64,000 nucleotides of DNA from Candidatus Aegiribacteria sp. GTDB lineage: Bacteria; Fermentibacterota; Fermentibacteria; Fermentibacterales; JCC-6. The notes below the pieces were generated by a model that was not told where the DNA came from, made no database searches, and saw only the letters and a program-made list of their open reading frames with translations. Positions 6,087 through 43,674 of the stretch are shown here, one piece after another. The stretch spans positions 82,342 through 146,341 of the forward strand of contig WTBT01000001.1 in assembly GCA_013138965.1 (NCBI GenBank). The letters run 5' to 3'. Positions within the stretch are counted from its first letter, which is position 1. Every line of letters starts with the position of its first letter. Both the position numbers and the translations under genes were made by a program.

Positions 6087-7184
6087 TTACTTTCTGCTGC
6101 CGTCTTTGTAGAATGGCAGTTTGACAGTTTTAACCGGAATTCTCTTTCCTCTAACCTCGGCCTCAAGCACCGTATCCTTTTTATGAAATCCTTTTTCAAC
6201 AAATGCAAGGCAGACTCCGTATCCGAGGGTCGGAGCCAGGGAACCGCTTGTGACTACTCCAACTTTTCTGTTGCCTTCAAAGAGTTCAGCACCCTGCCTT
6301 GGAAATCCATTCCCCTGAACCTCCAGCCCTACGATATACCTGGCCGGTTTTTCCTTTTTCTGCCTGGCCATCACTTCGCGGCCTATGAATTCCTTATCTG
6401 TCTTGAGTTTTACAACCCACCCGAGCTTGGCTTCCATAGGAGTGGTTGTATAGTCCATATCGTTTCCATAGAGAAGGTATCCTACCTCAAGCCGTAAAGT
6501 ATCCCTGGCGCCCAATCCCACAGGCTTTATCTCGAACTCTTCCCCGGCTTCCATGACAGCGTCCCATACGGTTTCAGCGTCTTCCGATCTGATGTAGATC
6601 TCGAATCCGTCCTCACCTGTGTAACCGGTTCTTGCTATAAGGGCTTTTTTTCCGGCAAAGACTCCGGACGTGTGGGAATAGTAACCTATATCCTGGAGTT
6701 TTTCATCGGTAAGCTTCCGGGCTACTTTTTCGGCATCGGGACCCTGTATGGCAACAAGGGCTGTTTCATCACTCTCGTTGGTCAGATCTATGCTGTAGCC
6801 TGCCGTATGATTGTTCACCCATGCCCAGTCCTTCTCGATGTTGGACGCGTTGACAATCATCAGGTAGTCATCCTCTGACAATCGGTATACGACAAGGTCA
6901 TCTACAATACCGGCATCAGGATAGCACATTGTTGAATAATAAGCCTTTCCGGGCTCAACTTCAGAATCATTGGTCAGAAGGTAATCCAGAAACTTCGAAG
7001 CGTCTTTTCCCTTCACTCTGAATTCACCCATGTGTGAAAGGTCGAAGACACCCACTCCGGAGCGGACGGCATTATGCTCTTCCTTTACTGTCGTGTACTT
7101 GATAGGCATGATATAACCGGCAAAGGATTCCATCCTGGCACCTAGTTTGAGATGTTTGTCGTGCAAGGCTGTTTTTTTATCCAT
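6087..7184 (-). CDS. gcvT: Aminomethyltransferase (glycine cleavage T protein)
   Basis: 365 aa; GVGVFDLSHMGEFRVKG, ARTGYTGEDGFEIY motifs; operon context. Confidence 0.96.
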   Translation of the reverse strand: MDKKTALHDKHLKLGARMESFAGYIMPIKYTTVKEEHNAVRSGVGVFDLSHMGEFRVKGKDASKFLDYLLTNDSEVEPGKAYYSTMCYPDAGIVDDLVVYRLSEDDYLMIVNASNIEKDWAWVNNHTAGYSIDLTNESDETALVAIQGPDAEKVARKLTDEKLQDIGYYSHTSGVFAGKKALIARTGYTGEDGFEIYIRSEDAETVWDAVMEAGEEFEIKPVGLGARDTLRLEVGYLLYGNDMDYTTTPMEAKLGWVVKLKTDKEFIGREVMARQKKEKPARYIVGLEVQGNGFPRQGAELFEGNRKVGVVTSGSLAPTLGYGVCLAFVEKGFHKKDTVLEAEVRGKRIPVKTVKLPFYKDGSRK

Positions 7185-7213: not shown

Positions 7214-7375
7214 AGGAGCCTGTCCGAGAATGAAACATTGGCATAAAACCCACACAACTGGCTATAATACTCGCATATTATCGTCAAATACATCCAGTAT
7301 TCTCCTCAAATCTACGAGCATTCTATCTCAGCCGTGAGAATATTCTGCTCAATGTACATTACCGGACACACTCCT
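7214..7375. repeat. MITE-like repeat copy 1, with imperfect terminal inverted repeats (TGTCCGAGAATG / CATTACCGGACA)
   Basis: TIRs at 7221-7232 and 7357-7368; internal homology to 43393-43528. Confidence 0.7.
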
Positions 7376-31345: not shown

Positions 31346-32607
31346 TTTAAGGGACGTACCACATTTCTTCAACTTATGGGCATATTTATATCTATATTAA
31401 TACGTATTATGTATTTAAAATTGTCTAGGTATCTGAATGATCATGGAGAATATCATGTATTTCGGAATCGAAATCACATTCTGGGAGGAATCTATCTGCA
31501 GCAGCATGAACACCCTGAGAGCTGAGGTTCAAGATTCTACCGGAATCTACAAGACTCAAACCCAATATATTGACGAGAGTGTAGCTAACAAATTCTCTTG
31601 CTCTGGATATTGATCTGGTACGACCTTTTGAAGTAAGTGCCCTTTTATTGATCCCCCATTTTTTTTCTATGTATTTCAAGATCTTTGCTACTGATTCATG
31701 CTCATATTCGCGATCCCTTAGATGATCTTTTTTTCTGCGATTGACCTCATTGTAAATCTTCCGGGCAAAATCATAGTTCCCAAGTATTTGATACTGCGAG
31801 TATCCCCTCATATCTTCTTCTGATTCTTCCAGACTGAGTAATCCATTAGCCCCAAGGAGAAAAGATCCTTCATCAAATCTTCCGTCCTGATAGATAGTTT
31901 CCCCGGGTTCTACGATGAACTGTGCATATTGCTTTATTTTGTTCGTTTTATTTCCAGAAAAGGTATTCAGTACCTGATCAGTTTCCTGCCATGGATAATA
32001 ACCAGGATAGATTAATCCTGGATGACCTGTCCAGGGGTACTTTTTAAGCATCTCATGATCACTTACCAATTCTGCTTTCAATGGATTTAAATGAATGTAG
32101 CGTACTAGCTTGAGGAGATAAATATCAGCCTGAACAAGAATCGATTTGTAACGATTCTGAAATAGGTGTCCGACTCGATCGTACTTCTTATTGAAATAGT
32201 TTGCATGGCCTGTAAGAAGTTTCTGCATGAATTTCGAAAGGGGCATCTTCCGGGTTCGGATAAGCAAGTGTATATGATTGGGCATCAGTGCCCACGCATA
32301 TATTGATACTCCTGTTTCAGCAGCGCACTTCTCAATCCGAGACACGAACTGTGCTTTGTCTCTATCATCCTTGAATATGGCTCTTTTCTCGATGCCTCGC
32401 GCCATCACATGGTGCACTGCGCTTTTCCAGTCCAACCTATTTGATCTAGCCATAATACTGATAGTGTACGCACATGCACGATGTGTTTCAAGTGCGCAAA
32501 ATTGTTATTGCAATAATTCAATATAAATACACTATTTTAGTAGATATATTTAAATACAGGGTGATATCCAGTCAAATTAGTTGAGGAAATGTGGTGCGTC
32601 CCCTAAA
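31346..32607. mobile_element. RAYT/IS200-like element bounded by ~29 bp inverted repeats
   Basis: TTTAAGGGACGTACCACATTTCTTCAACT (31346-31374) vs RC of 32579-32607 TTTAGGGGACGCACCACATTTCCTCAACT, flanking the transposase gene. Confidence 0.8.
31425..32453 (-). CDS. REP-associated tyrosine transposase (Y1_Tnp) with DnaA-C-like C-terminal HTH
   Basis: ALMPNHIHLLIRT HUH motif, GHLFQNRYKSILVQADIYLLKLVRYIHLNPLKA; C-terminal SISRAREFVSYTLVNILGLSLVDSGRILNLSSQGVHAAADR. Confidence 0.92.
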   Translation of the reverse strand: MARSNRLDWKSAVHHVMARGIEKRAIFKDDRDKAQFVSRIEKCAAETGVSIYAWALMPNHIHLLIRTRKMPLSKFMQKLLTGHANYFNKKYDRVGHLFQNRYKSILVQADIYLLKLVRYIHLNPLKAELVSDHEMLKKYPWTGHPGLIYPGYYPWQETDQVLNTFSGNKTNKIKQYAQFIVEPGETIYQDGRFDEGSFLLGANGLLSLEESEEDMRGYSQYQILGNYDFARKIYNEVNRRKKDHLRDREYEHESVAKILKYIEKKWGINKRALTSKGRTRSISRAREFVSYTLVNILGLSLVDSGRILNLSSQGVHAAADRFLPECDFDSEIHDILHDHSDT

Positions 32608-41565: not shown

Positions 41566-43344
41566 TTAATGCTGCTCTTCTTCATTCTGTGCTTTAAGTT
41601 TTTCGATCACATCAACCAGTTCCTCATCACCGAGCCCCTTGCCGCTTTTCTGTATTCTGAAGAGAATAGCGGATACACCAGCCCATTCGATAATACTCAC
41701 ATTAACTGTGTATTCTTTTACCGCTTCAAGAAGATGCTGGAACGCGACCTCCTCACTTTCGCAAACAAAACAGATCAGAGTTGCCACTTTTCTGTCACCC
41801 TCCAATACGTTCCGTGAACATGGATTACCCGATGTCTCCCGGCTCGCGAGATATGATGATATGGAATCGTATACAAGCCTGATATGCTCAGACAGCTCAT
41901 CAACAGAAATACTGGCCCTGAGAAAATCCTCAATATGGTAATAGAAATCTGTTACTACACTGTCAGGGATCTCGTTCAGTTCGGATCTTATCTCTTTCAG
42001 TTGCCTTACATCGTTAAGTCTCATCCCTCTGTCAAAATCTCTGAACTGTCCGAAATTTTCTTCAATAGCAAGTTTAATATCCCTGTAAGCATCTTCCATC
42101 TCCGCAAAGTCTTCCCGATCGATGGTTACATTCAGAATATCCACCCAGATATTCCTGTAGTTGGAAGGGGATCTGAAGGATACCACAGTAAGCCCTTTCA
42201 TAGCGTTAACCGAGCCTACCAGATCTATAATTTTTGTATCGTGAGCATTACTGTCATGCTGATTCGTAACAAGAACAAGTTTCAGCTGAGCCTGGAATGT
42301 TGATGATGAGAATATGGCGAGATATGCTTGATTCATACCTGTTGTCTCACACTCTTTTTTCAGCAGGGGAATCAGAGCTCTGGCGTAATGTTCGCTGCCG
42401 CCGTACTGGTGAATTCTCTTCAATTTTTCAAGTTCATGAGCCACCAGGAGCTTCTTGAGGCTCCTTCTTATAACTATCTGTTCCGCTCTGGTTGCGCTCA
42501 AACCGCTGGGGCCGGTCATCTCTATCCTTATGGAAATAATACCGTCCCGCGTGGTATATCTTCTCTGGTGGCGAATGGAGGCTCCGTACCACGAGTGTGT
42601 AAGCGCGGTTACACAGTTCTGAAATGAAATGTCCCTCTCGAATCCAGCAATGTTAATACCCGTAAGGTCTTCCCTCGTCGTCCTGAGGTTCTTAATGGCG
42701 AACTGGGGTTTTCCAGAACTTGCTCTGACCATGTTAACCAGCTGGAAATTCGTCTTGATTATCCAGGCAAGGTCACTTGCTTTTCTCTCGGCACGGTACT
42801 CATCAGATCTTGATGAAATGAACAAAACGAGTTCTCCCTTTTTCCCGAGAATACCCGCCGGCACCTTCTTATCACTGTACAATACCTCCAGGGCGGTCCG
42901 TACTTCTTCAAATTTCTCAAGCCTTTCAGCTGCCCTTGACAGTAAAGAGACGGTTCCCGCGCTTCCCTGTGCCAGATTGGCAAGAAGATCGGCCATTTTG
43001 CCGGCATCGGAAATGAATTCATCCCGCCGTTTTGAATCCTCGTCCCTGATTCCTGTTATCACGAACCCTCTTCGAATACCATCAGCATTCAGCGCAAAGC
43101 CTTCCAGAAGATCCAGATTCCATCCGGAGTGGTGAAGCTCGCTCAGTACAACAGTTGCCAGCCCCGGCCAATCCACTGCTCCTACTCCAACGAGAACAAG
43201 GTCATCGCCTTCCTTCTGGTTAATGACAACCTTGGTTTCACATGACTTTTCCATATCAAGCAGCTCATTGAAAATAGCCGATCTTCTTTCGGAAGGAATA
43301 ATGCTTCCGGGGCAGCCAACGTGTTTCTTATCCGCTTTGCTCAA
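41566..43344 (-). CDS. Large hypothetical protein with ACT-like N- and C-terminal segments
   Basis: 592 aa; DLVLVGVGAVDWPGLATVVLSELHHSGWNLDLLEGFAL resembles an ACT fold; no recognised full-length family. Confidence 0.65.
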   Translation of the reverse strand: MSKADKKHVGCPGSIIPSERRSAIFNELLDMEKSCETKVVINQKEGDDLVLVGVGAVDWPGLATVVLSELHHSGWNLDLLEGFALNADGIRRGFVITGIRDEDSKRRDEFISDAGKMADLLANLAQGSAGTVSLLSRAAERLEKFEEVRTALEVLYSDKKVPAGILGKKGELVLFISSRSDEYRAERKASDLAWIIKTNFQLVNMVRASSGKPQFAIKNLRTTREDLTGINIAGFERDISFQNCVTALTHSWYGASIRHQRRYTTRDGIISIRIEMTGPSGLSATRAEQIVIRRSLKKLLVAHELEKLKRIHQYGGSEHYARALIPLLKKECETTGMNQAYLAIFSSSTFQAQLKLVLVTNQHDSNAHDTKIIDLVGSVNAMKGLTVVSFRSPSNYRNIWVDILNVTIDREDFAEMEDAYRDIKLAIEENFGQFRDFDRGMRLNDVRQLKEIRSELNEIPDSVVTDFYYHIEDFLRASISVDELSEHIRLVYDSISSYLASRETSGNPCSRNVLEGDRKVATLICFVCESEEVAFQHLLEAVKEYTVNVSIIEWAGVSAILFRIQKSGKGLGDEELVDVIEKLKAQNEEEQH

Positions 43345-43392
43345 GGCGCTTATTCTCCAATCGTAACGGGCTCATGTTTTCAGAGGTGCTGT

Positions 43393-43528
43393 AGGCTGTC
43401 CGAGAATGCGGTATCGGCGTAAGGAACCAGATATTATCATCAAATACACTCAGTACTCTCTTCAGATTTGTAATCATTCTATCTCAGCCATGCGGCTCTT
43501 CTGCTCAATGCCCATTGTCGGACAACCT
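43393..43528. repeat. MITE-like repeat copy 2
   Basis: TIRs AGGCTGTCCGAGAATG / CATTGTCGGACAACCT (14/16 matched); internal homology to 7214-7375. Confidence 0.75.
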
Positions 43529-43597
43529 CCTTGACAGAAAGCACCAGTCAAACCATATATGCTGCCCGGTTGCAGAACCTGCAACCATCATTCTTGT

Positions 43598-43674
43598 GGG
43601 CGAATAACTCAGCTGGCTAGAGTGCCTGCCTTACAAGCAGGATGTCGGGGGTTCAAGTCCCTCTTCGCCCACCA
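43598..43674 (+). tRNA. tRNA-Val (anticodon TAC)
   Basis: GGGCGAATAACTCAGCTGGCTAGAGTGCCTGCCTTACAAGCAGGATGTCGGGGGTTCAAGTCCCTCTTCGCCCACCA. Confidence 0.93.

Follow-up and report, generated by a model that had tools for sequence, protein, structure and literature searches.

A gene-less, MITE-like element family of Fermentibacteraceae with a hairpin conserved on one strand

In a 64,000-nucleotide stretch of a Candidatus Aegiribacteria genome (contig WTBT01000001.1, positions 82,342 to 146,341; the window), two look-alike stretches lie in the same orientation, each just upstream of a minus-strand gene. What are they, how did they arrive there, and does their placement mean that they carry a promoter or favour a special niche, as a preliminary description had proposed? 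The explanation that we favour, with a probability of roughly 0.78, is a non-autonomous, gene-less MITE family of Fermentibacteraceae, which would be mobilised in trans by a DDE transposase and whose hairpin may have a role as RNA. The features of the window on which the argument rests are the following.

7214..7375, minus strand: element copy 1, full length (GGAG...CTCC core at 7215-7374)
7215..7232, plus strand: left terminal inverted repeat (TIR) of copy 1, GGAGCCTGTCCGAGAATG
7357..7374, minus strand: right TIR of copy 1, GGAGTGTGTCCGGTAATG as read on the minus strand
6087..7184, minus strand: gcvT, neighbour of copy 1, matching GCV_T (E=4e-96) and GCV_T_C
43391..43530, minus strand: element copy 2, an internally shortened member of about 140 bp
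41566..43344, minus strand: 592-aa ORF, neighbour of copy 2
43598..43671, plus strand: tRNA gene on the opposite side of copy 2

Copy 1 reads AGGAG at 7214 and CTCCT at 7375, and its left TIR together with the preceding base contains both the Shine-Dalgarno-like AGGAG and an ATG; the minus strand, on which its stably folding RNA would lie, is sense to gcvT, 30 bp away. Copy 2 has a TIR that begins GTAG in place of GGAG, is without about 20 bp of its left arm, and is separated by 46 bp from the 592-aa ORF, for which a Pfam search returned no match. The resemblance reported for the two stretches is real, since their ends and the named interior blocks align. Similarity ceases beyond the TIRs, except for CTCCTTG, a short tail overlapping the TIR, so a conserved intergenic region, the alternative that had been raised, was not seen. 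The coordinates first given for copy 1 were exact, and those for copy 2 (43393-43528) fell 2 bp short at each end.

Whole-genome BLASTN with either copy as query returned at least 40 matches, and the TIR pattern occurred at 143 places in the genome (81+62) versus 16 (7+9) for the reversed control, far above chance. A covariance model based on 31 diverse copies put the count for the 2.9-Mb genome at 69 or more, so the suspicion that there might be no further copies, which BLASTN of the genome and its relatives was meant to address, fails. The family is about 160 bp long (also about 140 bp), is bounded by 18-bp inverted ends (GGAGnnTGTCCGAnAATG, read inward at each end of the core), and contains short incidental ORFs only. 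In the covariance-model search, 26/42 genomes of the phylum carried copies, all in only two genera of Fermentibacteraceae; the named host records comprise Candidatus Aegiribacteria and further Fermentibacteria MAGs, and the copies of the second genus share about 73% identity. Many contigs start or stop inside the element, as expected because repeats break short-read assembly, and the element accounts for many of the contig breaks in these draft genomes.

Several members have hardly anything between their two ends. Versions of 38, 39, 61 and 83 bp with both ends kept occur in this genome, at the following places.

L103:1305-1343, L105:1206-1244, L061:1501-1538, L081:1501-1561 and L102:1223-1305: minimal versions, little more than two ends

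These are probably internal deletions; internal deletion is common in the family, and the ends are the part retained. Single ends in this genome were considered as the ends of a longer element and were traced to copies that had been truncated or had decayed, or to the ends of contigs. In the second genus we also noted a variant of about 205 bp (L404; G025:C189:18287-18492; G034:C100:4554-4758; G028:C99:3093-3297), which apparently holds an internal insertion.

Evidence for insertion came from the relatives. The spacer between tRNA-Val and tRNA-Met holds a copy in this genome (G000), and in 13 congeners without the copy it is a few bases long. When the flanks of 20 copies were joined and set against six congeners, alignable orthologous sites were found for 14 copies, both window copies included, and nearly all of these sites were empty. 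With the GGAG...CTCC core excluded, the filled site was exactly 2 bp longer at 9/14 sites, consistently across several relatives, and the remaining 5/14 did not show this increment. Window copy 1 faced empty sites and the 2-bp increment in 4/4 congeners; copy 2, with its mutated TIR, also faced empty sites, with an increment of 1 bp. The MITE-like character first proposed is thus borne out by the high copy number, the inverted ends, the lack of coding capacity and these empty orthologous sites.

The flanks prefer the form C-YA/GGAG...CTCC/TR-G, and the two flanking dinucleotides of one copy are often unlike each other and unlike the empty site. Measured against a CTAG-like target, the C-YA and TR-G flanks and the added 2 bp were present, and the paired dinucleotides were often non-identical. 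Of the target-site duplications that had been anticipated, therefore, insertion and a 2-bp gain were seen, and clean dinucleotide repeats were often absent. The pattern is consistent with a TA-type 2-bp duplication, judged by length and not by clean repeats. Longer target duplications of 8-9 bp were rejected: the z-scores were weak and the offsets scattered, and we took them as a product of multiple testing. At the congener site of another copy (L379) we found a version of about 40 bp with little beyond the two ends, and at that of a further copy (L356) a remnant of one end.

Which enzyme could have moved such an element? Genes for DDE_3, DUF772, DDE_Tnp_1 and Y1_Tnp proteins were sought over 36 draft genomes of the family, and the fetched loci were scanned for the element's ends. 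None of the loci examined from these four classes was bounded by them, and no autonomous parent emerged there. DDE_3 genes occur in 12/36 genomes, again with 0 bounded by the ends, and two transposase genes of this genome are listed below.

L092:695-1821, minus strand: the single DDE_3 (IS630-type) transposase detected in this genome; its gene is broken across two frames, and its ends do not resemble those of the element
31425..32453 of the window, minus strand: 342-aa RAYT-like protein (Y1_Tnp)

The C-terminus of the RAYT-like protein gave a weak match, below cut-off, to a DnaA-type helix-turn-helix. The element was most likely moved by cut and paste, in trans, by a DDE transposase with a TA target (IS630/Tc1-like or similar); such an enzyme would recognise the ends only, and would now be absent from the assembled genomes or have been missed there.

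The idea of a promoter cargo or special niche did not survive a wider sample. In 65 contexts, defined with a simple ORF caller, 24 copies lay sense and 20 antisense between co-directional genes, 19 lay in divergent gaps and 2 in convergent ones. The sole visible bias was avoidance of convergent gaps, against roughly 14% convergent in an intergenic-length background, and because the co-directional contexts split 24:20, the common orientation of the window copies is unremarkable. An orientation preference relative to genes had looked strong in 39 contexts (29/39) and was gone in the co-directional set of the 65. A search of the element for promoters and terminators found nothing that exceeded shuffled sequences.

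Many copies touch gene ends, with stop codons at the recurring offsets -1, -19 and -26, because the junction TA/GGAG makes a TAG stop and the ends hold TGA in other frames. The end of the element also offers AGGAG followed by an ATG ten bases on. The frame of three truncated copies continues into the ORF that follows, for a MazE-like protein (L096:2617), a PAP2-family protein (L098:2526) and a lipoprotein-like protein (L099:2265) respectively, and their sequences suggest that truncated ends may occasionally be captured as a translation start, providing ribosome-binding site and start codon. A full-length copy elsewhere (L300, G014:C367) has a reading frame that stays open from the first ATG, crosses the whole element and continues into a lipoprotein-like ORF.

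The most distinctive property of the family is its fold. The element is imperfectly palindromic over its full length, and one strand folds far better as RNA than the other (means of -71.7 versus -45.0 kcal/mol), the better strand being the same in 86/86 copies, those of the second genus included, although these are not 86 independent events, the copies being related by descent. The complement of the window plus strand reached -72.7 kcal/mol (z -8.7) and the opposite strand -43.2 (z -5.5); in the second subfamily the z-scores were -8.6 for the stable strand versus -4.5 for the other. DNA parameters gave a strand bias too (-31.5 versus -21.8 kcal/mol).

Compensatory changes between subfamilies are stronger evidence than the 86/86. 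In the 31-copy alignment, changes on both sides affected 16/49 pairs and 74 cells; shuffles gave 9.5 pairs and 17.3 cells, and slid controls no more than 9 and 13. In the same alignment 97.0% of cells were paired (30-44% in slid controls) and G-U pairs outnumbered A-C mismatches by 165 to 19, both statistics being partly circular since that strand had served to derive the structure. None of the shuffles (0/500) reached the observed paired percentage, double changes or covariation score, and a consensus fold obtained by the identical derivation gave -6.5 kcal/mol on the opposite strand versus -46.7. Changes private to single copies were rarer in paired than in unpaired columns (2.5% versus 4.1%) and favoured G-U over A-C (40 versus 20, p=0.013), in the same direction, with small numbers, for sense (11:6) and antisense (13:5) insertions. 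Covariation and G-U bias thus show an RNA-like hairpin to be conserved on one of the two strands, and this strand-specific fold is kept irrespective of host-gene orientation.

Could the fold itself be the means of spread? A REP/BIME-type repeat moved as folded single-stranded DNA by RAYT, an IS200/IS605-like Y1 tyrosine transposase, would account for the better fold of one strand, and the persistence of the bias with DNA parameters fits this, as does the abundance of Y1_Tnp genes (up to 9 per genome in the host genus; this genome has 7, including the one in the window). We nevertheless regard it as unlikely. No Y1 gene among the loci examined was flanked by the repeat or its ends, one lying about 500 bp from a copy and a few others at least 2 kb away; Y1 presence is uncorrelated with the element, as five genomes bear it with no Y1 match (G022, G027, G028, G033 and G034) and Y1 genes occur in eight genomes where the covariance model had no match; and neither 18-bp inverted ends nor filled sites longer by 2 bp are expected of that mechanism. 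More generally, the family might be a structure-dependent mobile element whose spread depends on how one particular strand folds, whether as RNA or as single-stranded DNA, and not a plain MITE recognised by its DNA ends; this would explain both the compensatory evolution and a G-U bias independent of host-gene orientation, and we hold it to be improbable. Somewhat more doubtful still is a selfish element that needs its folded strand to propagate, for instance as regulator or substrate of its own enzyme: the excess of private G-U changes, alike in both orientations, speaks for it in that the orientation of host transcripts offers no explanation, but the numbers are small, the private changes may come from unsampled source copies, and the enzyme itself is hypothetical.

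A promoter or regulatory cassette selected upstream of genes appears very unlikely indeed. The downstream gene is on the same strand in 43/65 copies, both window copies among them, but this figure stems from the divergent gaps, the element holds no promoter above shuffles, and the congeners retain the genes yet are without copies at the corresponding sites. We return to the non-autonomous MITE. Where a copy lies inside a transcript, its hairpin could behave as ERIC or NEMIS RNA does, through processing or through a change in mRNA stability and translation, and by analogy with those elements an action on neighbouring mRNAs is plausible; short of this, the copies, placed in intergenic gaps and at gene ends, would mostly be neutral passengers.

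An Rfam search at the window copy matched no known RNA family, searches for a phage or plasmid origin (plasmids by distant BLASTN) gave no match, and a search of a literature library found no description of such an element for Fermentibacterota. The best reading is of a real and new family of a known kind, ERIC/NEMIS/RUP-like MITEs: it is built like a MITE, and the elements that it resembles most are ERIC, NEMIS/Correia and RUP. ERIC (IRU/RU-1) of enterobacteria is a high-copy intergenic element of 127 bp whose RNA hairpin has an orientation-dependent effect on mRNA (PMC2229807, PMC10969869). Our family is similar in size, intergenic location, copy number and RNA hairpin, the RNA effect being here a predicted one; it differs in its phylum, in its 18-bp GGAGnnTGTCCG ends and in the lack of an Rfam match at the window copy. 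The NEMIS/Correia elements of Neisseria are short, TIR-bounded and often near gene starts, and their hairpin RNA is processed by RNase III (PMC10969869). The likeness lies in a short TIR-bounded element with a hairpin. Correia elements carry strong promoters, whereas none was detected in our element, and the ends differ. RUP has ends in common with IS630-Spn1, while among the transposase loci examined no IS had ends matching our element. RUP of Streptococcus pneumoniae is about 107 bp long, with a TA target, TIRs and many intergenic copies (PMC2229807).

REP/BIME sequences are palindromic, intergenic and associated with RAYT (PMC3733652). Our element is likewise palindromic and intergenic in a genome with RAYT genes, but it is much longer, has true TIRs, adds 2 bp at its sites and is unlinked to those genes. 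Its host being far from Proteobacteria, it offers an independent example of a mini-transposon whose conserved hairpin is strand-specific, and its many naturally empty sites make it testable whether the fold serves host transcripts or the element's own spread.
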